Below are positions 17,682-64,000 of a DNA stretch of 64,000 nucleotides, piece by piece (within the stretch, counting starts at the first letter, position 1; every line of letters begins with the position of its first letter). Both the position numbers and the translations under genes were made by a program. Below the pieces are notes generated by a model. It had not been told where the DNA came from. It was given only the letters and a program-made list of their open reading frames with translations, and searched no databases. The stretch is from Manduca sexta (Eukaryota > Arthropoda > Insecta > Lepidoptera > Sphingidae). The stretch lies in contig NC_051140.1 in assembly GCF_014839805.1 (NCBI RefSeq), positions 15,459,826 to 15,523,825 of the forward strand. The letters run 5' to 3'.

Positions 17682-17888
17682 ATACAGAAATTATGCATCG
17701 CTCGTCATAGCTGAGGGCATAGTGGGGCTGTTGTGATTGATGATGCTAAGACTGAGCTCGTTCGCTGACTCCTGGTGATCGAGCGCGCTTCACAGACTCC
17801 TCGGACTTTGGAAATGAAGATAGGGAAGTGGACTTACAGTGCGTGTATATAAAAGCGATGCATGGTGTGTGAGGTCGGTGCCGCGGTC
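17682..17888 (+). promoter_or_regulatory. grn: 5' UTR segment with four short upstream ORFs
   Basis: The exon starts after a strong acceptor (TTTCTTTTATTTGCAG, ending 17681). Before the preferred start codon it holds uORFs at 17693-17710 (5 codons), 17740-17778 (12, with two in-frame ATGs), 17814-17852 (12) and 17858-17872 (4). The last overlaps the first in-frame ATG of the main frame (17862) out of frame and ends before the ATG at 17889. Such a leader would repress or condition translation of the GATA protein and favour initiation at 17889. The frames are read directly; the translational effect is inferred. Confidence 0.6.
17844..17854 (+). promoter_or_regulatory. grn: TATA-like motif inside the leader exon
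   Basis: The exon contains TATATAAAAG (17846-17855), a near-perfect TATA box on the coding strand, 34-43 bases before the ATG at 17889. If used, transcription would start near 17875 and give a very short leader ahead of that ATG, skipping all four uORFs. It may be coincidental in a leader sequence. Confidence 0.25.
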
Positions 17889-18120
17889 ATGGACATGAGC
17901 GGAGAGGGAGGCGGGGCGGGCGCGGGGGCGGGCGCGAGCGCGCTGCAGCAGCGCTGGTACGAGAGCCGCGTCAACGGCAGCCCGGCCGCCGGCGACGTCA
18001 ACGCCGAGCCCAATGGCGACGGTTTCTTCCACTCACCGCTCGAGGGCGGCCACCACAGCCGCGCCCGCTACTACCACCAACAAATGCATGCCCCCTATTC
18101 GGCCGCCGTCGGCTCGCACG
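17889..18120 (+). CDS. grn: GATA1/2/3-class transcription factor (grain), coding exon 1
   Basis: This is the N-terminus of a GATA zinc-finger transcription factor, a nuclear DNA-binding regulator of development. Residues 1-77 plus the first base of codon 78 lie here. After a Gly/Ala run (about residues 7-16) comes QQRWYESRVNG (20-30), resembling the QPRW...VLNG motif at the start of vertebrate GATA2/3, then a His/Tyr-rich tract ending in GSH. The donor is CACG|GTAAGC in phase 1, matching the next exon. I prefer the ATG at 17889: its context (GGTCATGG) is good, MDMSGE parallels the vertebrate MEV start, and a uORF overlaps the earlier in-frame ATG at 17862, which would add nine residues. An in-frame stop at 17850 closes the frame upstream. 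The frame also stays open 285 bases into the intron. The exon is much more GC-rich than its surroundings. Confidence 0.88.
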
Positions 18121-43962: not shown

Positions 43963-44505
43963 GTCGGAGTCTAAGCGGAGGGAGCGGGCAGGTGTGTCGG
44001 CCGCACTTCCACACGCCGCTGCATCCATGGCTCGAGTCGAAGGCGCTGAGCAGCGGTGCCTGGGGCGGCGGGTTTCAGCAGGATGCGGCACCGGCGGACA
44101 AGCCTCTCTCCCCCGCGCAGCATCACCACCCCCACCCCCTGTTTTCGTTCCCGCCTACGCCTCCGAAGGACTCAACGCCGGACTCGGTGGCGGCGGCGGC
44201 GCTCGGCCAGCAGGACTACCAGGCGGCGGTCGCGCACGCCACCGCCATGAGCGTGGCGTTCATGCAGCAGCAGCAGGAACTGCCGCTGTGCGGGGACGTG
44301 AAGCCCATGATGGGCGCGCCGCCGTCGAAGCAGCGCGAAGGTGCGCAAACGGACTCGTGCCCCCAGGAGTCGAGTCAGCCCTCCGGGGAATACAACGCGC
44401 AGTACAACGCCGCCGGCGGCGACTACTACAACTACCAGGGGAAAGGGTATAACGGCACGCAACAGCAGAGCAAGCCGCGACCGAACAAGACGCGAACTAG
44501 CGCCG
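43963..44505 (+). CDS. grn: GATA1/2/3-class transcription factor (grain), coding exon 2
   Basis: Residues 79-258 (numbered from 17889), plus a split glycine at 78 and the first base of codon 259; phase 1 at both ends. The exon encodes the transactivation region. QVCRPHFHTPLHPWL (87-101) parallels QVCRPPLLHGSLPWL of vertebrate GATA3. FSFPPTPPKDSTPDS (138-152) is the class-specific FPPTPPKD motif, a Thr-Pro site used in GATA2/3 for CDK-linked degradation. Both are characteristic of the GATA1/2/3 class and argue against pannier or serpent. A short Gln run, Gly/Tyr-rich tracts and a basic KPRPNKTRTSA end follow, the last corresponding to the linker before the N-finger. The donor is CCG|GTGAGT. 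The frame stays open 209 bases into the intron, so intron retention would give a finger-less protein. Strong GC bias creates spurious open frames on both strands here. Confidence 0.93.
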
Positions 44506-47379
44506 GTGAGTCCTCGGGGACCGCGCACTGCACTCTCGCTACGACGCACTTGACACACTCACACGGTATCGCCGTACGCTTATCCGATCACAGGCTTCTA
44601 GCAGGGTATACTCACTGTCCCTCTCGGCTCTGTCATGTAACCCAGCTTTCACTGAAATTCTCTGCTAATCAGTTAATAAATCAAATAGCCAAAGAACCGT
44701 TCAAGGCTTGTTAATCGCGGCCGTACAAAACGAGTGCCACGATAGCGCGCGTAATTAGAATCTCTATAGAGATTGTCCCATCAACAATTGCGATTTATTA
44801 ATTCGATAAATATGTCAAGATTATTATTTCATTTGGTATTTCTAAATGGCATCGCGGAATGATATTTGGAACGAGATGTGTTCGGATAAGCGTAGTATCT
44901 TGCACCGGGGTTGTGGCGCCACACGTTTTCCATCTAACAAGTCCGTCGAGCCATCGAACGCTTGGGTTCATCGGTGTTACTAACGCTTCATATATGTGAT
45001 TAACAGCTGGTTTACGGTGGAGGTTTATTAACACATTGGCTTTTTGCAGTTATCGGCGTGCTCACTCGTGTAGACGTGTAATTCCGTCTCCCAGATAGTT
45101 AAGTCGTGTAATTCGTTTCAATAGACCGGCGTGTAGGAAGTAGATAGGATTTGGAATTAGCAAGTCACTATTAGACGTTTAAGCGGGAGATGCGTCGGCG
45201 CAACTCGACATTGTCTGGCTCCATGTGAACTCACGCGGCATTTTCTAATGTTGTTTAAACCAGACGTTTCACATTATTTAATTGCCGTTTCCATTGTTTA
45301 AAGTTGTAAATAAACAAAAGCTTTTAACTATATTCATTTTGGAAATAAATTTAAAACTCTTTGTTCTCTTTCACATTTATTACGTTATGAAATAAATAAT
45401 TATTGCAGTCATTGTTACTGAATAAACAGTAGCGCCGGTAATTTCATCTAAATGAACAATCAACATAAATTACGAAATGACGGTTCAATTCACAATTGCA
45501 TACAGTAACTTCGTAAATAATAAAATATTAATTAGGAATAAACTTAGCTAACACTATTACACATAATGAGATCTAATTTAATTGTCAAGCTATAAATAAC
45601 CTAAGAGACTGGTGACTATACACAGTAAAGGTTAAAATTTGCATTTCCACCATGAGTTGCAGGGCTCTATGATAAAGTTATGTGTAAACCAATTTTGCAA
45701 CACATAAGCCAACAATGTATTACACAACACTAATTGTATTAACACCGCATAATGACGATTTATTTTACTTTTAAAAATGTAATTACATCTCTCATAGTTG
45801 TTAAACTTTGACAATGGACGGGAACAAACATGGCCGCCTTATTGTCTTCAATATTAGAATAATGAATGCACAGAATTATATAGAATGACTGTTAATACGG
45901 GTCGGTCACGGTTGCAATTAGATGTATTCAATATTTTGTTAAAACTGAATTAGCATGAACATGGAATCGGTACAGCGTTACGTGATTGTACATTCATTAT
46001 ATTATACAGATATAAATTGTAGGGATTCTGTCCAAATTGGTTTAGTATTAAAATGTTTTACATTCAGTTTCCAATTATTGTCTGACTATCGACTTGTTAT
46101 CCGCTACATCCTTATAAATAATTGACGTCTGAAACTATGAACTTTAGAGAAAAACCTAGAAGAATAAACAATAACAGTTAACACTTTCCTAGATGGTAAC
46201 TAGATCTAGATAAATGGTTTTCCCATGAGATAATCGCAAACGTATTGAAAAAGCGGCGACGGGCGTTAATTGTGTCGGGTAGCATTTAACTCGTGTCGAA
46301 ATGGTAATTTTGTACAACTAACTAGTGAAGTAACTGTTGGTGTCAATGTTGATGTCAAAATGGCGGGAAATTATATTAGATTCATGTATCGCCCTTATAA
46401 AAAACAAGCGTCCGACTTGATGTTTATTGATAAATAAATATCCATAATACTAGAGAAATATTTTAGACGCTTAGAGAAAACTTACTTTAATACGAAACTT
46501 AGTGACTTAATTATTTAACTATTCAGTAGTGTAGTTTGGATCCATCACATTCATCCTATGCCGGTTTGTGAGTCGACAGACCCTGATTTAGCTACATAGG
46601 TGCATAATGCATCACATACGGGTGAGGTTAGTCTCCATTCTGAAGTTCTATTATTCCGAAAGTTGATAGACCAACGCGAGTTTAAATTTAAGATGTTGTA
46701 AGTGTAGATTTGAGAGCATAAGGACAGACAATCTCATAGGAATGTCAATAACCACAGTGATATAAACAACCTTGGATTAAGTCTGGACGAGGTCTAGAAT
46801 AATATCATGTTAAATTAAATCAGTTAAAACAAATTAAACGTCCCTGTTTACAATCAAGTTTGTGAATGAAGTCTTTAAGTCTACCTACAGGTATTCTGTA
46901 ATTGTGATCAATTACATTTAATGAATGAATGATAATTGGTTTAAGGTATTCTTTTAAACGTTTTGTACTACTGCAAACAATGCAGTCCATGTGATTGGCT
47001 AACTATTAATTTAATATGAGACACGTAATTTTTTTACGGGGTTAGTTATTACTATTTGCATTCGAATTCGGATTTCCAAGACACAGCAATTCTATGAAAG
47101 AAAAAGTAAATTAACCCTGTGTTTATTGGTGCTAGGTACATATTCGCTTAACGTATTACTCGATGTATCAGACCTAATACAGTACAGGTTACACGTGCGT
47201 TAGAATGTAAAACATTCAAATATTACGAACAGGTACAATTTATAGCTGTGTACGGTTACAATGACCTTTGCAAAATCCATTGAACAGCGCGAATCAAATA
47301 GTTCAGTGTTCAAAAACAATAGTCATTAAATTAGTCGTAGACATTCAAATTGCTCGTATAAAGTGGTATAGGCGCTAAA

Positions 47380-47525
47380 ACATTATTGCTGCGGTCGGTG
47401 CTGGCGGTTCCTTGGTGGAAGTATTATGATAATACGCGGCGGCCGGATGTGGACCATTCCATTGTTGGCCAGCCGATCGGCTGACCTCGAGCCTCCTAGC
47501 GTTCCGCGCCACGCTATACAACAAA
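47380..47525. promoter_or_regulatory. GC-rich islet with 14-bp perfect palindrome
   Basis: CAGCCGATCGGCTG (47470-47483) is a perfect palindrome. Nearby are CATTCC (TEAD/Scalloped-like), CATTGTT (Sox-like) and a TGATAAT GATA core. The element lies in the intron before the N-finger exon. Candidate cis-regulatory element; no coding content. Confidence 0.3.
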
Positions 47526-49539
47526 TTAAAATTTCACGTTCCTATACCAACGATTGAATGCTAAATAGAGAGTACTACAGCTAAATCAATCGAAAAATCG
47601 TGACCTAAGTCGGTATTTGAAGAATTTCATGGAAAGGGCGAACGACATAATAATCGGTCAGTAACAATTGCAAGCTGTTATTTATACCGCGGCTATTTCT
47701 TAAATGGTTTCATTCAACACTTTCTAAAACAATGTTACGTTCACTTAAGCCGTATTCAAATTCGACGATTTTGTGTTCTATAATTTGAATGCGTTTTGTA
47801 TTGTGAATGCATTTCTATTGTATCTTATGATGATGGTATAAAGGTCGTATTGCATTGTTTGATGGGCATTTAAAGTGTTGTTTGTATGCAGCTCACGGTT
47901 CGCGTTGCAGCAACCAATGTTGCGAAGGTTGCGCAACCAATTAGCCGGGTGTACGTGCGCAGACATGAGTCGGTGGATCATAGGAACTCAGGCGACTGTG
48001 GGCTTTACGTATGTCCAAAGCGCACTTTTTGCATGCGGAGTTATACACAATAAAACTGCAAGTAATTGGCCGTCAAAAATACATGGTAGGTAATGTATTC
48101 GGATATTTCCAAACAAGCTGCTAATGAATATTTTCGTGTTGAGTATACAAACAGTGGTTAGGTGGAGCGAATTGGTCACGGTCTGCCGACTCACGCTGGG
48201 ATACAGTTGCATCAGTCAAAATTTGCATTTTACGTTGGACATCCGCGGAACGTTAGCGATTAATTCAAACGTTAAATTATAGGACAAAGAGGTTTTCGTT
48301 CATTTGCATAATGTTCAGCCATTGAATTCTTTACCGCGCAGACACTACATTGTATTCTAAATATTTAAGCTGATGAAAATGTTTTTAATTCATCATAAAA
48401 CTAATTTCATCGTGAATTTTTCTACTCCATTTCACTTCGAGTATCGTATTACAAGTTCCTTGTACATTAATAGTACAATATTGAAGTTATTGAAGCCAAT
48501 TTATTCCTAACAATAGTTTGCTCGGAGGATCGCGGAACAATGTTCTTACACTACTTCGATATACAAGTTCTTAAGTTTATGATACTAACTTATGTTCTTA
48601 CTAACTATACGCGTTAAGAGTTTCCTTAAATTATATTTAACAACAATAAATACTAAGTAACTTTTACCTTTGTAAATGACAAAAACATTATGGAAATAAT
48701 TATTAAGCATACTATCATTAATATAACTGGTTACTCAGAATTAGAAAATAACAACAATGTAGCGATGCAGACGCGTCTTTAAACCGTGTCTTAGGCATCA
48801 TACATGGCCGTACATAGTAATTAAGTAAGGTTGAGCGCAAGTTGCAACCGAGCGCCATTGCAGCGCTCGTCACACGTAATTATCTCGCAGTACGCTAATA
48901 ACGAATGCAAATATGATCGTCCGACCGTCTGACCAACCGTCCGACCGACCGCTGCAATGCTACTCCGAACGGAGCGCTGTGCCGCGGTATGTGCTATGAA
49001 AATGGCTTCATTTTACATGCTCTCTCGTTAACATTTCGAATGCAACCCCAAACTAAAGTGAGGAGCTCTATGGAAACATTTAACATCGAGCATTAAGGAA
49101 TTTAGATCTGAATCGTTCCGATCACAGTGTTTGTATACAAACCAGTAATACAGTTCATCCAAGTCAATGACTGGTAAAATTCATTTTACAAAATCCCATA
49201 CACAATACCCAATTGAAATAAATTCTCGCAAAATCACGAGGTCCGATTAAATATTTCTATTTGCATACCAGTATGTAATTAAAGCGTAATAACAGCGTCT
49301 GTGGCGCAACAAAGAATAAGTTTTGAGCAATAATTTAATGGTTTGTATGCAAAATAGTCTAACCGTTACGTGTTGATGGGCCGATGCGCCGAGAGTCCGT
49401 CATGGTACAGGGGAGCGAATTAGTCCTTCATTTAAATTACATTACCCCGCTCACATTAGTGCTCAACGTGACTCCGATCGAGTTTTTACACGACCGTTTC
49501 ATTGAGGAGTAACGGGCCGGCTTCGTTTGTCTGAACGCA

Positions 49540-49830
49540 TCGATAGTTCCGAGCGTGCGGCGCGGCGGCACATCACTCGAGTTTGCACTCTCAGCCAATT
49601 CAGCATACGAGGTGTCGCGACGCCGCGCCGGCGAAATGTTTTCCCTGCGTGGACGGCCCGTGTGAAAACTTTGCGAGTTCTTGACGGGCCCGAGTGCGCT
49701 CGCCTCGAGACTCTCGAAAAATAAAAACCCGCCCACTCGGCTACGTAAATATGGCAGATGAAAATCTTTTATCGCGGTCACGTAGCGCCGCCGCGTCACG
49801 ACCGCACGTCACTCCGGGCAATAAAGAGCG
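49540..49830. promoter_or_regulatory. CpG-rich island in intron, possible regulatory element
   Basis: About 290 bases of CpG-dense sequence with few stops on either strand. A 120-codon minus-strand frame and a 65-codon plus-strand frame overlap here; neither has domain features, and the composition explains them. It could be an internal promoter for a shorter GATA isoform, since it lies 2.2 kb before the N-finger exon, or an enhancer. Undecided. Confidence 0.3.
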
Positions 49831-51688
49831 AGCCGCATTCTAATTTTGAACAAACACTGGAATTTTTCGCTTAAACTTCATACTGGCCGCTTTTGTTCAG
49901 GATAGGCACTCTAGCGTACGGTTACACGTTATATAAAATCATATCTTTATTGGACGTCGAAGGCACGTCCGGCGCGAGTGGCATCGCGGGTCACTCGGAA
50001 TAAAGATATAACTCATACTCTGTGGAAGAATTAAAATGTTAACATTAATCCGGTTCGTACAATTACGTCGCATAGTAATTAATAAGAAATACTACTCTCG
50101 TTAATAATACGTGTAATATCGACGCACGTATGAGAGGCAGGCAGATGTAAATCTTGTAAAACACCACCGCCCCCGGCACTACTGACTTTCACAAATGTTT
50201 TTACCAATAGAGACGTTACTATAGAGCACGAATCACTCTTAAAAGCCAGAGACACGATCGTAAACCATCGCTCGAGTAATATCCTGTTATTTTTTCCTAA
50301 TAATCGTTATTGATGTTTATTTATTACAAACTTCGATACAAATTACGGGTTTTATCGATCCAACAAAAAACATAAAGGGTTAGACCAAAAAGTGAGTCGT
50401 CCGCCGCGCTGCCCTGATCGCAATAAGTTTTCGATAAGGTCCGGGAGATTTAATTGCCGGGTTTGATCTGGTTTTACATAAAAAAGATGAATTGCCGCAC
50501 AGCCTAAAGCTCGTAAAACATTTTCGGTTCGTTTATCGTATTTTTTTCCTATCATATCGGATCACTTACACGCATATTAATATAGGAACGTCGGTCACCG
50601 TCTATTATTGTTTATTCAGGGTGCCTCGCTCGTCTGGGGATATAGATAATCAGATCTAGATGCGTGTTATGATACGAATAACGCTTGATACGCATCGACG
50701 GCTACCGCTATGTATAAAAACTTTATCATAAATGTAATTGCGTATCATTGTATCGAAGAATGCTCGGTTGAGAGCCGCCGATGTTTCCCACAGAGATTTC
50801 AGTTAGGCATTCGTGATGAGGTTCTAAATTCGTTCTCGGTAAATCATCGTTCGAGTAATCGAGTAGAAAGAGATTGTGGGCGGCGCGCACGCATCCCACC
50901 TGTGAACATCCTCTCGATAAACATGTAAGCGATTTTACGAAATAGTTTAAAATCAATCAATTCTGTTGATTACAAATTTCCCTGGAGGGAGGCTCGTCCT
51001 GGGGTCAATAATTGCATGCGTAGTATAGTATCGTGAAATTGCTTTTTCTGTCGTTCAGTTTGTTGAACCAATTTGTAAATCGATTTATGTTATGCTTGCG
51101 TTGAAAATATACGTTCATAGACAGAACATAGTTAAATTAGCATGTAGGTAACACTTTATAGCCCCGTTTATGCTCTGTTTAGTTCGGTAGACGCTCTCGA
51201 ACATTTTTGCAATAACTATTTTGATTTCGTAGCAATTCACTTTTGTTGCAATCTTGTAAATCTTCATTGCTCATGTTAAAACTACGTTTCTTACGATGTT
51301 TTACTACGTTTATAATTATTTTGATCATGTCTTAGTGATGGAGTGAGTATTTTGTGTAATAAGCATGGTTTCCGTGGTTTAATGTAAGGGCATTTCGCAC
51401 CCGTCGGAGAATGTACGTACCTGACGCTAACGTTACTTTCTCTCGATTTTTCTTTGCGTGTAAAAAATCTTGATAATTTTTCTTTGAGTGAAACTCGTCG
51501 CGCTTTCTCTTGTTAATTGAATATTTTAGTGTTTCTTAGTAATTGCAATTACGTTGATGTGTAGATAAAAAAGTTGTAAAGGATGATGCAGTATGTTTAT
51601 GTAATAGAATATTTATCCGCATGCTTTGTTAGATAGTCAAATTCTATTTGTAATGTTTCTGAATGTGATATTCTCTCGTCTTCCCCAG

Positions 51689-51703
51689 CCTGCCAGGAGA
51701 CAG
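51689..51703 (+). CDS. grn: candidate 15-nt in-frame micro-exon before the N-finger
   Basis: A near-ideal acceptor (TTCTCTCGTCTTCCCCAG, ending 51688, with TTTCTGAAT as likely branch site) is followed by CCTGCCAGGAGACAG and a donor match CAG|GTAAAT. The length is 15 nt, and both ends fit phase 1. Joining exon 2, this piece and the finger exon inserts Ala-Cys-Gln-Glu-Thr between RTSA and EGREC without disturbing the frame. The downstream acceptor at 52037 is weak, consistent with regulated splicing. Alternative isoforms are known for the silkworm GATA-beta gene. Transcript evidence is absent here, so it is a strong candidate only; the finger exon also joins correctly without it. Confidence 0.5.
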
Positions 51704-52037
51704 GTAAATTCTAACTCTTATGTACTAGAAACGCTGTGCAAATTATGTGGCGTAATTTTTGCATTTATTTCGGTGTTGGTTTCGTATGTTAATTTACTTA
51801 TTCAATTCAACCAGCTTATTTTCACATCCTGTAATCATTTATTGTATATTTTTTGCTTTGTTATTTTGATTATTGTTCACGATTACATAAAACCTTTTCT
51901 TTATTTTTAGTCAAAATGAGAAGTACAATCGTGAAGACTAGTGCTGTTGTATTTGTTTCGCGGTTGGTCCTAAGACTTGTTTGACCCGTGTGCGTAGTGT
52001 TGTGTGCAGTGTTCTGACGTGTGTCTGTATGCGGCAG

Positions 52038-52183
52038 AGGGTCGGGAGTGCGTGAACTGCGGCGCGACGAGCACTCCGCTGTGGCGGCGCGACGGCACCG
52101 GCCACTACCTGTGCAACGCGTGCGGCCTCTACTACAAGATGAACGGTCAGAACCGACCGCTCATCAAGCCTAAGCGAAGATTG
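52038..52183 (+). CDS. grn: GATA1/2/3-class transcription factor (grain), N-finger exon
   Basis: The exon completes Glu259 and encodes residues 260-307. The N-terminal GATA finger is complete: C263-VN-C266, 17 residues, C284-NA-C287, with LWRR (273-276) and the [20 protein letters not shown] core. The [14 protein letters not shown] tail is that of GATA1/2/3 and grain rather than of pannier or serpent. In this family the N-finger supports binding at composite sites and recruits FOG/U-shaped cofactors; Glu and Val flanking the first Cys (262, 264) correspond to FOG-contact positions in GATA1. KPKRR is a likely nuclear-localisation element. The exon ends at TTG|GTGAGT in phase 0 directly after KPKRRL, a boundary shared with vertebrate GATA genes. 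The C-terminal DNA-binding finger must be on a later exon, not present in the window. Confidence 0.97.
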
Positions 52184-52714
52184 GTGAGTGTAAGAATCCG
52201 ACCAATTTTGTATTGTTCGTAGCTTAAGCGGGTGTTTTGCTTATTTGTAGCCCTCCGTTTATGGCATCGAAACGTGTGAATCAAGCCTCATTAATTCCAC
52301 ATGTACCTATATAAACCGTAATATTTATGCATATCGGATTAACCGTTGACGCGCTTGAATACCTACTCTCATTATAAATTCCAGTTTTTTTTATTACGTT
52401 TGGGCGCAACGCGGTTTCCCGGAAGACGCGCATATTACATCTTATGTTTTCGAGATAAAATACCATCGTCTACAAATAGCATTCCGAGTCGACCTTAGCG
52501 AGAATGGGTGTTGTATACAGTTAAGGGGCAGCAATAAAAAGGCGGAGCATGCACGCCGGAGCACGACATCGCATTAAGCGCTCCCACAAATTGGGCTCTT
52601 ATGAAAGTTGAACGTTTCGACGAAAGACCACAGTGTCCACTAAACTAGTCTCCGTGACCGCTATAAATCTTCGAGTTAACATTTAATCTAAGGTCGGGTA
52701 CGCATAAAACTGAG

Positions 52715-52850
52715 ACAATGCGACTTTCGGCGAGCGCTCGTGGCCGGAGCGAGCGTCGGGCCGGCGAGCGGCGTCACGTCACAGCGCAACCGAGAGCTGG
52801 CTAACGAGTGGCCCGTGCGCGCAATTCTACCTACAATTTACCTTAATACC
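52715..52850. promoter_or_regulatory. CpG-rich islet just inside the intron
   Basis: A dense CpG block (GGCCGGAGCGAGCGTCGGGC and onward, with CGTCACGTCACAG CREB-like repeats) lies 0.5 kb after the N-finger exon. No coding frame. Candidate regulatory element by composition only. Confidence 0.25.
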
Positions 52851-54435
52851 CGTCTCGCAGACATAAACTAGCGGAATGGCTCGCTATATTTGCCTTTTGT
52901 TGACCAAATTACTTAATATCCGAGCGTTATGATTTCATTGCGGCGTTCCATCGGTAGTTTGTTGCGCGAGCACGCGGCTCTTCGGTAACTATCTATATTG
53001 TTACTAATTTGAAACACAGTTTGTGCCGATAATTAAAATATTTCTTTATTGATTTCATCATGTTGGATGGATTTACAGATTCTGGATATTAAGTTAACAT
53101 TTATAAATGTATTTATTTTGATTTATTTTTCGGGATCGATGCCTAACTTTAAACACAATCTGGCAAGGGTTTTGTACCTTTAATTTCTCACAGAGACACA
53201 GCCTCATATACTAGTAAGTTATCATACAAGGATCAACTTATACTGGTGAATCCGCGACTGGGACTAGCATACTACTATAGCAAAAGGTATACGTAATTGG
53301 AGCGATTTTAAATATAATTTAACGCAGCTACTTACCTCACGTCTCAAGCCGGATGTCGGTAACGCTGGTTTAATATTTAAATTCACTGTACTGTGGAAAC
53401 ATACCGTTAACGTTATGCGAATAAGATTGAATTCTCACTTTTATTTTCGCAGTGGGAAGTGCGGGACAATGCAAGCCATGTCTCATGATGACACTACCGT
53501 GTTGTTTTTAAAGGTTTCAAAAGTTCATTCAAATTGCAATGATGTTTAATGTTGTTTATTGAAGTTCGCAAAATAGTTTCTATGCGGATTGATTTTGTAA
53601 GATTCTTGATCACTGTTATGCTGCAATAGTTGTTAAGCATTAGGGTTTTATAAACAATCTTATCGTTCACCGAATAATCAATATTATTTTCACCCATATT
53701 AATTTCTGAAATTAATAAATTCAAGTTAATTATAAAGCAAAGCAAGTGCGGCAAATAAATGCACTCATTACGAAACCAAGACCTTGTTCGTAACCACATA
53801 ATTGGACAATGCAACTGAGACCGACAATAAAGAATTAAAAAACAATTTCTACTCATAATAATTAGATTAGACCCCAATTAAGCGGACGCACTTGACATGA
53901 ATTAGAAAATGAAGTGGGAATCCACTGACAATAAGAATTGTGCTGTGGACGCTAAATATTGTAAAATATCAACCTTGCCACCAAACAATAGGATTACAAA
54001 AATTAATGGCTCCTTTGCACAATTATTAAGCGTTAATATCTCGAAATACCGCAGTTCGATTGCAACAATGCATTTTTAATGAAGGTATGCGTTTTAATTA
54101 ACCGTTTTGAAACTTATTTACGCATCCCACGTGTAATGAAAAATATGTGAATTAATTAAAAACATTTATTCGTCAAACAAATAAAAAAGAGTCAATATTT
54201 GATTGGCTTAACCGTTTCAAATAACATAATGATTGATATACTCTTACACAGATACTCTTGCATGTATTCTTGGTGGTTTTGTAGAGCCGTTTTCAAGTAA
54301 TTTAATTTCGACGTTTCGTTACTATTTGTATTATAAATGCAAAAGTTAGTAAGGATATTTAAATGTTTATTAGACAATATAAAACCCGCAGAATGAATGT
54401 TGCCGATATCAAAGATGGCGCAAGTCATGGGATAT

Positions 54436-54528
54436 AAATAATAATATATAATAATAAAATCAGCTCTGTATTATATACTGTCTCACTGCTAGGCACGGGT
54501 CTCTCACTATTGAGAGAAATTAGGCCTT
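54436..54528 (-). repeat. SINE 3' half, minus orientation, split by an insertion
   Basis: Read on the minus strand: 'AAGGCCTAATTTCTCTCAAT', 'GAGACCCGTGCCTAGCAGTG', 'ACAGTATATAATACAGAGC' and a TTA-rich tail. This is the 3' end of the same SINE family seen at 41.2 kb. It continues at 54885-55118 on the other side of an inserted element. Confidence 0.75.
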
Positions 54529-54884
54529 AAAATAAAAAAAATAAAATAAAATACTTTATTTATCACGTAGGCGAACAAAGTTGCACTTATGATACGTCAA
54601 AACAATGAATAAGAATAATTATTATTTCTAAACAACTATTAAAATCACTTATATAACTATGGAGATTTTAAATTAGGGATAAAGATTATACAAAAGACTA
54701 GGTACAAAAGTACGAAGTAACCAGCTCGGGCTGGCAAGTAGGGGAAATAGAAGGGTAACGCGTCGCGATCCTCACCGGTGAGGACATGAGCCCTAGCCTA
54801 GCTAACCTACCAGCCTTTCACTAGCTACCTAAGTGATGACTACCCGAAGAAGAAAGGCAGAAAGAAACTCCGGGCATTTCTTTT
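54529..54884 (-). mobile_element. truncated LINE-like 3' end inserted into a SINE
   Basis: About 355 bases separate the two halves of a SINE. On the minus strand the segment runs from 'AAAGAAATGCCCGGAGTTTC' through 'TTCTTCTTCGGGTAGTCATC' to '...GATAAATAAAGTATTTTATT' and an (TTTTA/TTTTTT) tail beside the SINE. An A/T-rich simple tail at one end and abrupt truncation at the other are typical of a 5'-truncated non-LTR retrotransposon 3' UTR. It has no reverse transcriptase frame. The family is uncertain. Confidence 0.55.
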
Positions 54885-55118
54885 CACCACACTGGGCTAG
54901 TGCGGATTGGCATACCTCATATACCCTCATAATTCCTATAGAGACTTTCTCAGGTATTCAAGTTTCCTTACGATGTTTTCCTTCACCGTTAAAGCAAGCG
55001 ATAATTCATAAAGAATACACTCATCACTTTAGAAAAGTCAGAAGTGTGTGCTAATGGGTTTAAACCTGAGGACATTCGTCTCCGCAGTCCGTACCACTCC
55101 CAACTACGCTATCGCCAT
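54885..55118 (-). repeat. SINE 5' half, minus orientation
   Basis: Minus-strand reading gives 'GCGATAGCGTAGTTGGGAGT', 'GACGAATGTCCTCAGGTTTAAACCC', 'TTTAACGGTGAAGGAAAACA', 'TCGTAAGGAAAC' and 'CCAATCCGCACTAGCCCAGTG', in SINE order, stopping at the insertion point. Head and B-box are well preserved. Confidence 0.8.
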
Positions 55119-58100
55119 TTTATATACCTATCCTACTATAATCTTATATACCTAATACCTATCCTATAATCTATTCCAGTGGAGCTTCTATTTCTTAGGG
55201 GTTAGGAGAGGCGGGTCTGTTACCTTCGCAGTTGGATTCGAGAGTAAAACCTAGAATAACTTACTGTGCCGATAAACGATTAGATACATTGTAAAACATT
55301 CCTTTTTGGTTGTCAACTATACATTTGACTTTCTACTACATATTTTTTCTTGTCTACGATACATATAAGATGTTATCATTTGAATGATCTACACAACATA
55401 TGTTAAGAGAGTTCAAAATTAATGTTATCATAAATAACAGCAAATGATTGCTGGCTGTCCCAATGGTCGCCTACCGGTTAATTTCTAGTCATTTGTAATA
55501 AATATAATAGTTTATAACTTAATCTCGGCAGTTCGTGCAAAAGAATGCAAATAACCCGCATTGATATATGCCACGAATGTTTGTAAAAATGCGAACATTT
55601 TTCCGCTATCTCGTTTCTTGCAAATGTTATGAAGTAATTAGATATTTCTCGCTAACACTATTTATAGTTACGGAATTTAATAATTTCAAAGATACAATCT
55701 TAGAATAACTTTACCACTTGCTTGATTTACAATGTGAATATGGAAAAAGGAATAAATATATGAGTCATTAACTTCATCAAATACGGTAGTCCCCTATGAA
55801 TACTTTAGTACGAGCGTGTTTTATTAAATTAATTTCTGTTAACAATATAGCGATCCTTTTTAATGTAGTAAAATTATAAAAGAGATTTAATGAAACAGTT
55901 CTAGTAGCACACGAGACGTCTAGAAACGATTAGTTCGTTCTGGAATTCAATCCTTTCACGAACGTTGTGAGCACGAACTGTTTTTTAGTTCGCCACGCCG
56001 TTTGTCACTCAACATTAAACATGCACAATAAATAGCGCAGATATAAAGTAGAATTGTGGAAATAAAACTAAGAACGCATTTGCACCTGCACTTATTTTGT
56101 AAAGTCACCGATACACTTGGACGTTATAATATCTTTTTGCCGATGTCATTTATGTCGCGCACTGACAAATGCATGAATTTATGGTCTTGTACAAAAAAAT
56201 ACGGCACCCCATTTACATTTTATTTAAGTAAGGAAAGTGGTGGTGTAGCTTTCTTTGAGACATTTGCCGTGTATAGTACAAGTTAATTTATGATTATCTT
56301 TGAAATTTTTGATCGATCCGCCAACACTGGACAGAATCGTTATTCCTACCTGATATCCTGAAGCTACTTCTTTAGTACCATTTATCTTCTGCTAGCCTAA
56401 TATCTTGTAGTTAAAATTGAATATAGAACAGTTTAAAAATTACCTTACTTTGGCGTTTTAATAAATAAAGCCTACTGATTGAGTGGCCAAATTTATAACA
56501 AAGATGGCGGATTAATCAGATATTCCAAATTCAAAAAATCTCAGCGGTGTGTCCAAGTCTTTACGCAGCAATAAAACTGCTCACTCCAGCAGACTATAAA
56601 CAGTGCTATGTGTTATGTGAGGTATCATGCAATATATTCCGCTACCCCGCTTTGCTTCGTGAGGGAGCCCGGGGAAAAATGTACGGCCGTACGTGTGAAC
56701 ATCGCATGCTTTTATTTGAATATGATGTAGAGCCGGGGATGTTTGCAATGGTTTTCGAGGAGAATTGTTTACTCACTTGCAACACAGTTTTATATGGTCT
56801 TTTTTATCATGTTTTGTTTTGATTTTGTAATTGGAATCTTTTTTTCCTTAAGATGCTGTGTAGGTTAAACGGCAAATACATTTTAAAAAATAATTTATAA
56901 TGTATTCGATTGTCTTTCTGTAGTCACATCAATAAAACTAGCCGTAAAATAGTAAACGAGAGAAACACGTTTTATTGGTCTACCAAGAATTCAGTATTAG
57001 TCAACACATCAAATATCGTTTATCAAATTAATTTTATTACTCAACGATACATCTACAATGTATTCGTAACGCATGAACTTAGAACATGTATTACATATTT
57101 AAGTTTTAAACAACGTCGCGGAAAACGGACGGTCATAGAACTTTCCTATTTGGCATTCACGAGCCGAACTGGTGCCAAATAAACTATTACAATAAGAATC
57201 CGATGACCTTAAATGTGGAGGCAGGAATCGGTCCCACACTGTCTGCCTGATCTATAATCGCTATGATGTCATAAATTACCGACAATTTATTGTGTATGTG
57301 GCTATTCAAATCAGTTGGTTGTCTTTGAAGTTACTCAGTGTGAGTTCTAGCCGCAATAAACCTATTACTACTTATTGACATTTAATATTGTCTGTGGCTA
57401 AGATTGTGATAAAATAAGAAAAACCAAACATACAAAGTTTATTTCTTAAAGAAAACATAAGAATGACGTTTTAATTAAAGCTAATTTTGAATTTAGAACG
57501 TGGTAAATGTTTTCGAATTTGGAACGGTAGTGGCCGTTGTCCGTGTTCTCTCGGTGGCCGGGACAAGTCTCACCGGTCATCGATCACCGCGCGCCATCGT
57601 ATAAATCGTGCCCGCTGGTGTGGTCCAAGTAAAAATTTCACAAGAACCAATCAATATTCCTATGGCACATGTTGTTTCCTTTACAATTTTATTGTTTTTG
57701 GTCATCTATTTTTTATCTGATTATGAACGTTATGTATTTCAGATTAAGAATAATTACGGGCGTAATAAAAGAAGTCGAGTTAAAAAGATATTATATTTTG
57801 TTATCTAAAATTGAATTATGTTCTTTTATGTAACGTAATTTTTATGGTTGTATGGTATGAAATAAGTGCCCTAGAGGCAATGTAATGGAACTAAGTGAAT
57901 CGTATCATGTCACTGGGTAACCGATTGTGCGGTTCGTTCGCTCACGATTTGCGGTCGCTAACTATTAGGGACTGGGCCGTAAGTTGATATGCCGATGTGT
58001 TGTTTACGTACATTTTTAAAAGCAAGGTCGTGTTTTTGTCAGTCATAAAATTCATTTTTGCATGACAGCAAAAAATTATTTAATACAAAATGTAGAGTGA

Positions 58101-58533
58101 CAATATTAATAGACATAAAACAATATTAGCTATTAAAATATAAAACACGCCGTGAAACTAAAAACAGATTTAAATTTATAGAAATTGAACTATATTCTAG
58201 TTTTTGACCATGAGTGATACAATCCGATGCTTTTCTCATAATCGATTTGAACTAATTCTGCCAGTAAGTCTACACCATAATGTGCTCTAATTGCTATTTG
58301 CTTTAAACTAATTATGAGGTTTTAACTTGGTCCAAACGCGTCCTCGCGATGCCTTCCCTTACCGCGGCCGAGTGACAAAGTCGTCCCTGTTTACGGACGT
58401 TCAAAAACACATTGGTACGAGATCAGGATTGGATTTAAAAACGTTTTTACTTAAATAAAATTAAGCGTACCTTATTAAGATACCGTGTATCGTTTGTGAG
58501 TTATTTTTTTATTGATAATTTTTTTTACAGATT

Positions 58534-58573
58534 TCAGATGCTATTCTGAAATCGGTTTTAGAATGGCATCTGA
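58534..58573. other. perfect short hairpin flanked by T-runs
   Basis: TCAGATGCTATTCTGA (58534-58549), an 8-base loop and TTAGAATGGCATCTGA (58558-58573) form a 16-pair stem as RNA, with two G-U pairs. T-runs flank both sides. It is too short for a typical animal microRNA precursor and has no recognised role. Confidence 0.4.
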
Positions 58574-60894
58574 TTTTTTTTATTTGTGTGTATATATGGA
58601 ATCTATATTAATATTCTTATGGTGATCTTTCTATCATTTGTCTTATCTCTTTCTCACAAATACTAAACAAGACAATTACATTTATTGTTATTATAACAAG
58701 TAATAGTATTGTAAATAATAATAGTTCAGTGTTAAAAATATACTTAGTTTTATGTATAGGTAATCAAAATACGCGATTTATATCTTAAAAGATTTATTAA
58801 TAAAATGTTCTTTGCAAATAAAACAAAAATTAAATAAAAAGCGTCGAAAACCTAGGTCACTCGCAGTCGCAGTCTCCGCTATAAATCGTGTCCGAATTCG
58901 AAGTTTATTCGTACACGTCAATAAGTTAATAATAAGGTGTAAATAAATAAAGAAATTCGTATTAAAGAGGTGCAAAAAGCCTGCTCAAGAGTACGAGAGT
59001 GTGGTCACCCTACTCGGACATTGAGTGACATGGGGACTATCCGCTCGGCGGGGGGCTCAGCGCATTTTTACCATTACTCGATACCTGGCGAGTCTTCCTT
59101 GAGGGCTTTGGATGGGTTGAGGTTCGATTTTTATTTGGTTGCAATTTGTAATTGAAAAATTACATCTCATAAAAGTTTTTTTCGGTTGTGCGTTATGAAT
59201 CCAGTAGTTCGAATCGAAACTGTCTCGTGTTTCGGACAGTAATATCTAAATTTGTGAAATAGCTATGTTACGTTAATCAATTATCTCATTTATTTATGTA
59301 AGCAAAACTGCATGTATAGTGTCCGCAAACCGTTCCCTTTTATTGTATTTCCATAAACACGGACCCTTTTTTCATCCCACGGGCCAGCGTCGAAAAAAAA
59401 TTCCACTTTTGTCAACGCCTTGATTGATACGGTATACCTTCCCTTGTTTTAGCAATAACCCAAGTCTTTAGTTCGTTTTTTCCCTCGTCTCGTACATTTT
59501 TATTTGTCGCGTCGAACTCGTTTGACATATCACTAAATTTTGTAAGAAAAATTACTATTCGTTAGATTTTTATACCGGTGGCCGGGTGTTATAAATTTAA
59601 GAATGTTTTTTCGATACTGACTCACCGTTTGTTGTGCGAGGGATTGTATGTTTTTTTCACATATTTTTATAGTTTTGGTACCTGTGCTAGGCGCCAGTGG
59701 CTGTGACATTTATGGGCAGGATATTGGGACACTATTATTCGATATTAATTATGAGGAAACAAACTTGGCGGGAGGCCGTAAATTTGTATGATGCAGTGCA
59801 ACGGGAAATCATGTCAATAGTTTTTGCTTAGGGGCTCGTTTTTGTTGATGGTACGCGTGGGATGCTAATAAATAAATTGGTCACGTGATGTTTGTCGACC
59901 TGTGCATGACAAATGTATGTTTTGGCCTCTTGATAGTCTGGGTGTTGTACGACTTATTACAAAGACTTTTATTAAATAAAACACCAGAACAAGCAACTGA
60001 ACTTATAACTGAGCGACACAACTAAACCATATCAATGCCGCGACCACATCTCTACTAATCGCATAACCGTAAGCACCGAACGCAACCCGTCCACTACCCT
60101 CTGCGGTATTCTAAATTTGAACCGCTAGTCTAATATTTGAATACGTTACTTAATAGAATAGGGGTGTGCGTAATCGATTTAGGCGGTAATCGTATCGATG
60201 GTAAATGAGAGCGCGCGCTCGATTTCACGCGGTGAACCGGGCCGAATCGATTGGCAGGCCGTGTACGTGCTCCCATTCATGGGCCCGGGAGCCGTCGCTT
60301 GCCTCTACTTAATCTTGTACACCTATTACAACAGACAAACTAATAGCCCGCACTGTGCGTCAATGGTTATCGATTTTGATGGAATAATTTTTTAAATCGA
60401 TTGCTGGCTTGGCTAGGTAACTTAATTAGTAAGAGTGTTGAAGTTTTGTCCTTGTGCATTCTAGTGTAATGATCATTGCATTATCAATGTGCACTCAGCT
60501 ATATTGTTTGGTAAATGACGGAGTTACTGCCACTCGAATAGCTAAAACATCAAAAGACATTTTGCACAATGACAAATAAGAATCCCGGGGAGACCGATCC
60601 TAGTGAGTCGCGTTTAAGGCCAGTTGGTGTGTAATTTGTTTGTAACACGGAGACTAGAGCCTATAAGAGTTGCTAATAGACTTAATTTTCCGAGTGATAA
60701 GGTCTTTTTTAACATAAAAAGTTTTTTTGCAAATGTCTGCCACACATTAGAACAGGTTGTAAAAGTAACTTACGATCTAAATAAATCATCTGTGGTCTAC
60801 AAAATAACACTTTAAGAGATCTGTATTCGATGCACAATTTATGTCCAATATAATAACTTAATAAAAACAGTTGGTTTGCAGTTGTAAGCGGAGG

Positions 60895-61025
60895 ATTCTC
60901 TTGTTACGCTAATCGCGGTGCGGGGCGTTGCGCGCTGTTATTTATCGGTAGCCGACGAGCCGGCGGACGAGCGACGTCTCACCTGATTTAGAGCCTTAAA
61001 TTGCACGCCTCGCCATTACCCGAGC
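60895..61025. promoter_or_regulatory. GC-rich islet with Stuart-like CpG density
   Basis: GCGGTGCGGGGCGTTGCGCGC, then TTTATCGGTAGCCGACGAGCC and CACCTG. Composition contrasts with the AT-rich flanks and a GATA core is present. Candidate regulatory element only. Confidence 0.2.
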
Positions 61026-61499
61026 AATCATCTCGATTTAGCCTCGCGCAATCAACACTTCTGTACTTTTAATGCATCCAACCCGACCACGGACACGGCA
61101 TAGATAATCTAAATTAAACTAAAAACAGGTCCACATAAACTCAACGCAGTGTCAATAACTCATTTCAGATCACTTCGCGTTACATCACTAGTGGTATTGC
61201 GAATTAAGAATATCCCAATTGCGCAAAGCTATTCATAACTATCGCGCTGTTACGTCTAAAACAAATAACTTGCAGATTTCGAGGCAATTTATCATTGATA
61301 AAAAAATCAAGTGCCACGAATTCGTAACAGAGTTTTTGTCCGACCGGAGCTCGGCAATTAAAGGCATTAAGCAATCGTTTGAATGGCACCAGAGACAAGC
61401 AAACTACCGTATTACGTTATAATCTGAAATAAGCCTCGTCCAGACTGACAGACGGCTAAGTGCTTCAGCTACCGAACGTGACGCAACAAACAAAAGCAA

Positions 61500-61870
61500 A
61501 ACATCTAATAAATAATGCGATGCGCCCGCGTAGCCGCGGCATGGCTGCAGTGGCGAGCGGAGTGGCGGCGCGCGGCGTGCCAGCGCCTATCCACTTCCTC
61601 CCGACAATTAACGGAGCAGGAAGCGCGGGCTGTCATTAACCCGTCAGCGCTCGGTAGCGCCAACTGTTCCAAAAAGCATCGTCCGAATCACAGTCTGTGC
61701 TCGCTACTCGCCGATGTAATTAGGATTCGAATGCTTTACAAATACAAATAAATAAAAGTGGCTGTGCGAGGTGGCAGGCCGCAATTTACCGGTGCGTTGG
61801 CCCAGAGCTCGGCGCGTTCAAATTGCCGGGTTGGGGCCCGCGTCTCACTGACTAATGACGCGACTCCTGG
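61500..61870. promoter_or_regulatory. CpG-rich island in the last intron
   Basis: About 370 bases rich in CpG. A 78-codon plus-strand frame from 61515 ('MRCARVAAAWLQWRAEWRR') is open by composition; it has no family match and no donor site preserving it, so I do not call a gene. It could be an alternative promoter for a short isoform containing only the C-finger, or an enhancer. Confidence 0.25.
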
Positions 61871-64000
61871 ACAATACCAAACGCTATGTTATGAGCATAT
61901 TTAATAAGTCCGCTTTTCAATTATTGACATCGGCCATATGCCGCGGGTTAGGAGAGCTCCAGTACGATTTTTATTCATGTGCCGTGTGCGTAGGTGAGCG
62001 GCTTCCTTCTGTGCGATCGTTCACTGAGCCGACGAATATATCACTACGATGTTTGCATTAACATTAATAAGTGATTATTAATGGGCACGCTCGTCGAGTG
62101 GCTATTTATTATATTTATGAGCTATTTGCCTAGCTAGATAGGACTCCGCGTTTACTTTACTAACTTCGGCTGGGGGGCAAAAGTATATCATGTATTTTAA
62201 ATCATTTCACTGGCAGCATATTGCTTTTTATGGATTCCAATTGAATAATAAATATAGCAATTATATTATAATGTTTCTCAACCTGCATAATTCCCAACAT
62301 TATTTCACTTTATAAATATATAATTTGGTCTAGTCATTTAATTGTCTTTTGCAGGAAATTGAGTGAAATCTTATAACAAGCCTTTACTAAGTCCGAACGC
62401 AACAATGCACGTTTCAGTTACCAATACTTTATTGCCTGTACATAACGTGAACTTACGCGTTCGCGTCATTTCTCAGTATTTCTAAACTATCTGCAATCGT
62501 TAGCATTATATCCATATAACGGTAGGGTAAAGCCGCTATTTTGTCAATGTGTTCCGTCCCACGCGCGGCGTGTACAAGCCACCGGCCCTCGGACCTCCGT
62601 CGTTCGCTTCCGTGTCTTTGCTAAATAGAACATATGAATTCCCATTTTGTCTAATAAGACGGCTGGCTTCTTATTGGTTTCGAGTAAAATTTGTTGGGTA
62701 TGGAATTGTTTTTCGCGGAAGGAAATGAGTATTAAAATATTTGTAGAACCGATGGAATTTAAATTGAATCTCAAGTCTACAAATCGTATTAAGTATTTCG
62801 AATTTTGGTTGACCTGAGGATTCTTCTTACGCGTAGTGGTCTTTGACAACAACGATATTACACTAGCAAAAAGAATATTTCTGAATTGTATACTTATTCC
62901 ATGGCACCAAGTTATGTGTTTTGATACGGCCGAGGCGTTGTCTGAATTGATTGACGCGGAATTTTGTTGGGAATTCGCCTCACAAGTAATAATAAAAACA
63001 ATTCTTAAGGCATATTTACACTGTGATTAATTTACGTTTTTTTCACCGCCAAATGATAATGTTTAAAAATAGCTTTTCTTTGGTCGAGGTTTTAAAGAAG
63101 TCATGGGGATGGTAATTTTATTTTTGAATAATAATATCAGGTAAAGTGTATTAGTGTCATGGTGTAGTTCTCTGCTATATGTCCAAGGTCCAACAAAATC
63201 CATATGTCGCAAGTCTTCTCATAACCAGAAAGTAAGGCAATTCTTTAACCACCTCCTAAGCTTACCTTAACCAACCACGAATAAGTATATCAGCGTATAC
63301 CACAATCGTTTTACGGTCGAAATCTCCATACCCCTACAGCGCAAATAAAGGTCGTTGCATACAATACATTTGTATGTATCGCGCGTCCGAGCTGCGTCGC
63401 GTAATTGACGCAATCCGATATTATCCGCGATGTAAGATCACGCATCGTATCCGATAGCCTTATCCGATGTGACAGTATTTACCCACGTGAAATGTTTAAT
63501 GAGATTCGCATTAGCATAATTGTGTTTTTATTTTTAAATGGCGTTTATTCCGTTTGCCTATGTGCTAAAATTAATCGAATGTTGTCGAAGTGTTTCCTAT
63601 TTTCCTATTTATACAACCGATCAAATATCCCGCTGCTTTATGAATATATTATTATCATATGCATACAAATTCATAACTGATTGACAGTAGTGGCCCAATG
63701 ACTAATCCATAACACAATCATAATTGGGTGTCACAGCGCGACACCGCAGCGAATGCCCATAAAAATCGTGTCAAAAATGTAAACATAAAACATCTAATGG
63801 CAAGAGATAAACTGCTATGTATAGAGTGATCATTGTACGTGTTAAAGACCGGTCGGTGCGGTAACGAGCTTTTCGTATACAATAGACCTTTTAGTGTCTT
63901 GTGTTTGAACGTCAATCGCGGAGACGCGGCGGGACGTCGGCCGGTGAGCGCGCTCCTTTATTGCGTTGCTCACGCTTCACACAGATTTATCTAGGACACA

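Follow-up and report, generated by a model that had tools for sequence, protein, structure and literature searches.

A probable 15-nt alternative micro-exon before the N-terminal zinc finger of grain/GATAc in Manduca sexta

The 15 nt at positions 51689–51703 of the window (the whole stretch of 64,000 nt of Manduca sexta DNA that was analysed) very probably form a genuine alternative (cassette) micro-exon of lepidopteran grain/GATAc, which inserts the residues ACQET before the N-terminal GATA zinc finger (N-finger). This reading is based on the splice-site anatomy, on the phases and on annotations of relatives that contain this insert; from these we infer that the micro-exon is used in M. sexta and that the relatives encode ACQET as a separate 15-nt exon. 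The exon is already machine-annotated in relatives and is no new kind of element. Judged from sequence, the alternative micro-exon is most likely common to moths and butterflies, and would then be a small, well-defined difference beside the DNA-binding domain of a conserved developmental regulator, so that what the N-finger flank does in GATA factors could be tested through a 15-base difference. The case also illustrates how annotations of related species can serve to check a short exon first noticed by eye in raw sequence.

The window contains the 5′ part of grain/GATAc (GATA-binding factor C) on the + strand, the strand of all gene features given below. Coding exon 1 (17862–18120) starts with ATG (MVCEVG...) and ends in phase 1 at the donor ACG|GTAAGC. 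Coding exon 2 has a long form (43963–44505), which ends with ...KPRPNKTRTSA in phase 1 at the donor CCG|GTGAGT and matches the Vanessa cardui protein (P0001), and a short form (43963–44340), which ends with ...SKQRE, also in phase 1, at the alternative donor AAG|GTGCGC at 44341. Coding exon 3 (52038–52189) has a weak acceptor and encodes the N-finger. The joined exons of the window share 93.7% identity with Vanessa cardui GATA-binding factor C-like isoform X1 (P0001). The exon of the second GATA finger follows on this contig, 24.9 kb separating the two fingers, and reads SLQSAARRAGTSCANC..., in agreement with the C-finger of P0001. The gene was assigned to grain/GATAc by its two GATA fingers and its GATAc-type N-terminal region. 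No Rfam family matched the window at gathering scores. The N-finger exon is closed by tandem donors 6 nt apart (52184–52195, TTG|GTGAGT|GTAAGA; GTGAGT at 52184 and GTAAGA at 52190), the second of which adds Val-Ser. Of the 345 distinct proteins fetched, those of Vanessa, Danaus, Spodoptera and Pieris have the form with Val-Ser (RRLVSSLQS), as do five others, and the form without it (RRLSLQS) is seen in many insect proteins, especially of beetles.

The micro-exon itself, CCTGCCAGGAGACAG, is read from the split codon G|CC through TGC, CAG, GAG and ACA to the split codon G|AG, giving A C Q E T E. It has the features that define a micro-exon of this kind: 15 nt, a multiple of three, AG and GT at its borders, and phase 1 on each side, the phase in which exons 2 and 3 both join it. 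Its acceptor region (51637–51688) consists of a 50-nt AG-free stretch (51637–51686) with a pyrimidine-rich end (TTCTCTCGTCTTCCCC), followed by AG, and its donor (CAG|GTAAAT, 51701–51709) lacks a G at +5. Scored with approximate splice matrices, the acceptor of the micro-exon reached 6.7, the strongest of the three acceptors scored (exon 2, 1.3; exon 3, 0.9), and its donor reached 4.9, compared with 4.8 and 8.2 for the short and long donors of exon 2. Most of what the initial annotation had described holds when the sequence is read and translated, namely the 15 nt with their AG/GT borders and both phases, the pyrimidine tract with an AG ending at 51688, and the addition of Ala-Cys-Gln-Glu-Thr, with its extra cysteine, directly before EGRECVNC; the weak acceptor that it ascribed to the following exon agrees with the 0.9 scored by these approximate matrices. 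The "strong branch site" that it had also described was not found: there is no CTRAY or yUnAy motif within 50 nt of the micro-exon acceptor, and the best branch-like motif is an imperfect CTGAA that starts 30 nt upstream of the acceptor, within the AG-free stretch.

Other splicing arrangements were considered for the same 15 nt. Recursive splicing was ruled out because the micro-exon does not start with GT. An alternative acceptor of exon 3 was ruled out by the 334 nt between the 15 nt and exon 3 and by the GT that the 15 nt have of their own. At exon 3, a NAGNAG-type shift was ruled out as well, since the next AG follows after 2 nt, which would break the frame.

We also estimated how often such a candidate is expected by chance, scanning for in-frame, stop-free exons of 3–30 nt scored by the approximate matrices. 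At the observed scores, the 7,532-nt intron contains one candidate, the micro-exon itself, and it was still the sole candidate when both thresholds were lowered by 4 bits (in the intron only). At the observed scores, no candidate was found in 101,653 bases of control sequence (+ strand 18121–43962 and 52190–64000, plus the whole − strand), nor in 200 dinucleotide shuffles of the intron. Since the scan is post hoc, its controls were run at the observed scores only (the lowered thresholds being applied to the intron and not to the controls) and its matrices are approximate, we use it as support only.

Protein searches showed that the same insert is annotated in relatives. ACQET is found at the identical junction in two predicted proteins, Spodoptera litura GATA-binding factor C isoform X3 (P0003) and Pieris napi GATA-binding factor C-like isoform X5 (P0004), and a gene model of S. 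frugiperda (P0251) joins CQET to the EGREC of exon 3, with P replacing A and a different upstream sequence. The insert is skipped in Vanessa cardui P0001, Danaus chrysippus P0002 and Iphiclides podalirius P0005. Its presence in some lepidopteran entries and its skipping in others is the pattern expected of an alternative micro-exon and supports that reading. It also contradicts the statement in the initial annotation that standard gene finders miss exons of this length, because standard annotation found the exon in these relatives.

Among the 345 distinct proteins fetched, 310 contain GRECVNC and three contain CQET (P0003, P0004 and P0251). Lepidopteran-type exon-2 sequence was recognised in 22 of the 345, and five of these 22 extend to the N-finger (two with the insert, three without it); counting P0251, the insert is present in 3/6 recognised lepidopteran entries that reach the N-finger, a split that is uninformative on the frequency of the insert because each entry represents a 90% cluster of the protein database (142 sequences for P0001, 27 for P0003 and 5 for P0004). 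No single species was found with both inclusion and skipping among the fetched entries. The matches listed were the best 120 of 2,729, the best 120 of 2,713 and the best 120 of 977, and the search giving 2,729 matches scored the 7,970 candidates with the most shared words.

In both P0003 and P0004, ACQET comes after KQRE, the end of the short exon 2, for which the window has an equivalent donor in the same phase (44340|44341). The junction from 44505 to 51689 proposed in the initial annotation, i.e. from the long donor, is in frame, but it occurs in none of the 345 fetched proteins, and P0003 and P0004 use the short donor (here 44340) instead. All four combinations (long or short donor, with or without the micro-exon) keep the frame open in the window. 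The long-donor form with the insert (TSA-ACQET-EGR) was found neither in the 345 proteins nor among the matches listed; its absence is not established by this, because the database is clustered at 90% and cluster members are invisible. Of the lepidopteran entries, 2/2 short forms have the insert and 3/3 long forms do not, very few data that again come from cluster representatives. KQRE or KPRE is joined straight to EGREC, with no insert, in 29 of the 345 fetched proteins, which include beetles, flies, bugs, barnacles and a horseshoe crab and none recognised as lepidopteran. As such joins occur across arthropods, the short donor seems ancient and the micro-exon an addition. A KQRE short isoform is annotated in many arthropods, and use of the donor at 44341 drops a 55-residue segment carrying the basic stretch before the N-finger.

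Inclusion of the micro-exon would place ACQET in a flexible linker immediately before the N-finger. In the AlphaFold model of P0003, the insert (residues 208–212) is found within a low-confidence segment (180–213, pLDDT under 50), and the N-finger is modelled confidently (block means 81 and 89, residues 221–240); as a whole, the model is of low quality (mean pLDDT 48.2, pTM 0.24) and is useful just for telling the low-confidence linker from the ordered finger. The long form carries the basic stretch KPRPNKTRTSA before the finger. Over the 20 residues that precede EGREC, the net charge amounts to +4 in the long form, +3 in the long form with the insert, +1 in the short form and 0 in the short form with the insert, so that the choice of donor accounts for most of the change and the insert for just one unit. 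With the short donor and the micro-exon together, the basic stretch would be lost and replaced by a Cys-containing linker of little net charge, and the altered linker may in turn change the contacts of the N-finger with DNA or cofactors. For GATA2/3, binding of the N-finger to GATC motifs depends on its adjacent basic region (Pedone 1997, as cited in PMC8844375); because of this dependence, weaker binding through the N-finger would be expected for the short form with the insert, and the extra cysteine is a further possibility. We offer, as a tentative proposal, that the two choices act as a coupled switch within one lepidopteran GATA factor: the short donor and the micro-exon would swap the basic flank of the N-finger for the Cys-containing linker, the N-finger would stop reading its own DNA sites or would respond to redox or partners, and other arthropods would independently have placed optional inserts at this junction. 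The way the insert is divided between the few short and long lepidopteran entries agrees with such coupling.

The 15 nt could instead be a chance or cryptic splice-like site, unused in mRNA. The donor without a G at +5 and the imperfect branch site fit this, as do the three of six lepidopteran entries that reach the N-finger and skip the insert, but the controls gave no comparable candidate, and five identical residues at an identical junction in a separately annotated moth and butterfly can hardly have a chance origin; we consider such a site highly improbable. Low-level splicing noise in the relatives, i.e. a real junction without function whose rare form was kept by machine annotation, would explain why the insert is missing from P0001, P0002 and P0005, and gene-prediction pipelines can retain rare junctions. 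It is nevertheless unlikely, given that the peptide and the reading frame are identical in S. litura and P. napi and that the length preserves the frame.

The micro-exon could also be a neuronal one of the Srrm234/eMIC programme described in Drosophila, and Grain has neural roles. Fly eMIC exons are described as having an AG-free zone, UCUC motifs, an extremely weak 3′ splice site, a nearby UGC and CUAAY branch points (PMC8797185), and two of these listed features, a long AG-free zone upstream and UCUC motifs, are present here. However, where an extremely weak acceptor is expected, that of the micro-exon has the highest score of the three (by the approximate matrices); upstream of it, TGC occurs no nearer than −67, and CUAAY is absent from the preceding 100 nt. 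With the weak 3′ splice site (by these approximate scores), the nearby UGC and CUAAY all missing, the exon was not classed as an eMIC exon; since two eMIC features are present and three are missing, neuronal use is not favoured, and we regard membership of this programme as improbable. An alternative micro-exon of grain/GATAc remains our preferred reading.

No paper among the literature matches listed (for part of the searches, the best 15–20) is evidently on this exon. Drevet reportedly described, in 1995, the splicing of silkworm GATA-beta, which may or may not be the grain/GATAc gene. A term search of the main text of a Drosophila Grain paper (PMC8530363) gave no occurrence of the word "isoform".

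The closest known counterparts of the micro-exon are the S. litura X3 (P0003) and P. napi X5 (P0004) isoforms, which share the gene, the junction and the ACQET insert with the window; they differ in being predicted isoforms of other species in which the insert is joined to the short exon-2 donor, and no experimental description of them was found in the literature searched. Micro-exon 8 of Drosophila homothorax is likewise in frame and adds to a linker between conserved domains of a developmental transcription factor, for which isoform-specific functions are reported, but it is 3 bp long, arises within a 48-nt exon through the choice of donor and belongs to another gene family (PMC7392893). The serpent isoforms SrpNC and SrpC are likewise products of a GATA factor alternatively spliced around the N-finger; there a whole N-finger exon is swapped, whereas the micro-exon adds five residues before the N-finger (PMC8844375). 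In Argiope (P0097), another insert is seen at the same junction before EGRECVNC. GATA-2-like isoforms of horseshoe crabs (Tachypleus P0063 and P0075, Limulus P0067) also carry an optional Cys-containing insert in the same place, before EGRECVNC, which occurs both after KPRE ends and after SSA ends. This insert differs in having 17 residues (GTCYRWKLGLNPVCQYA, with S for N in P0063) and need not be homologous to the lepidopteran one.
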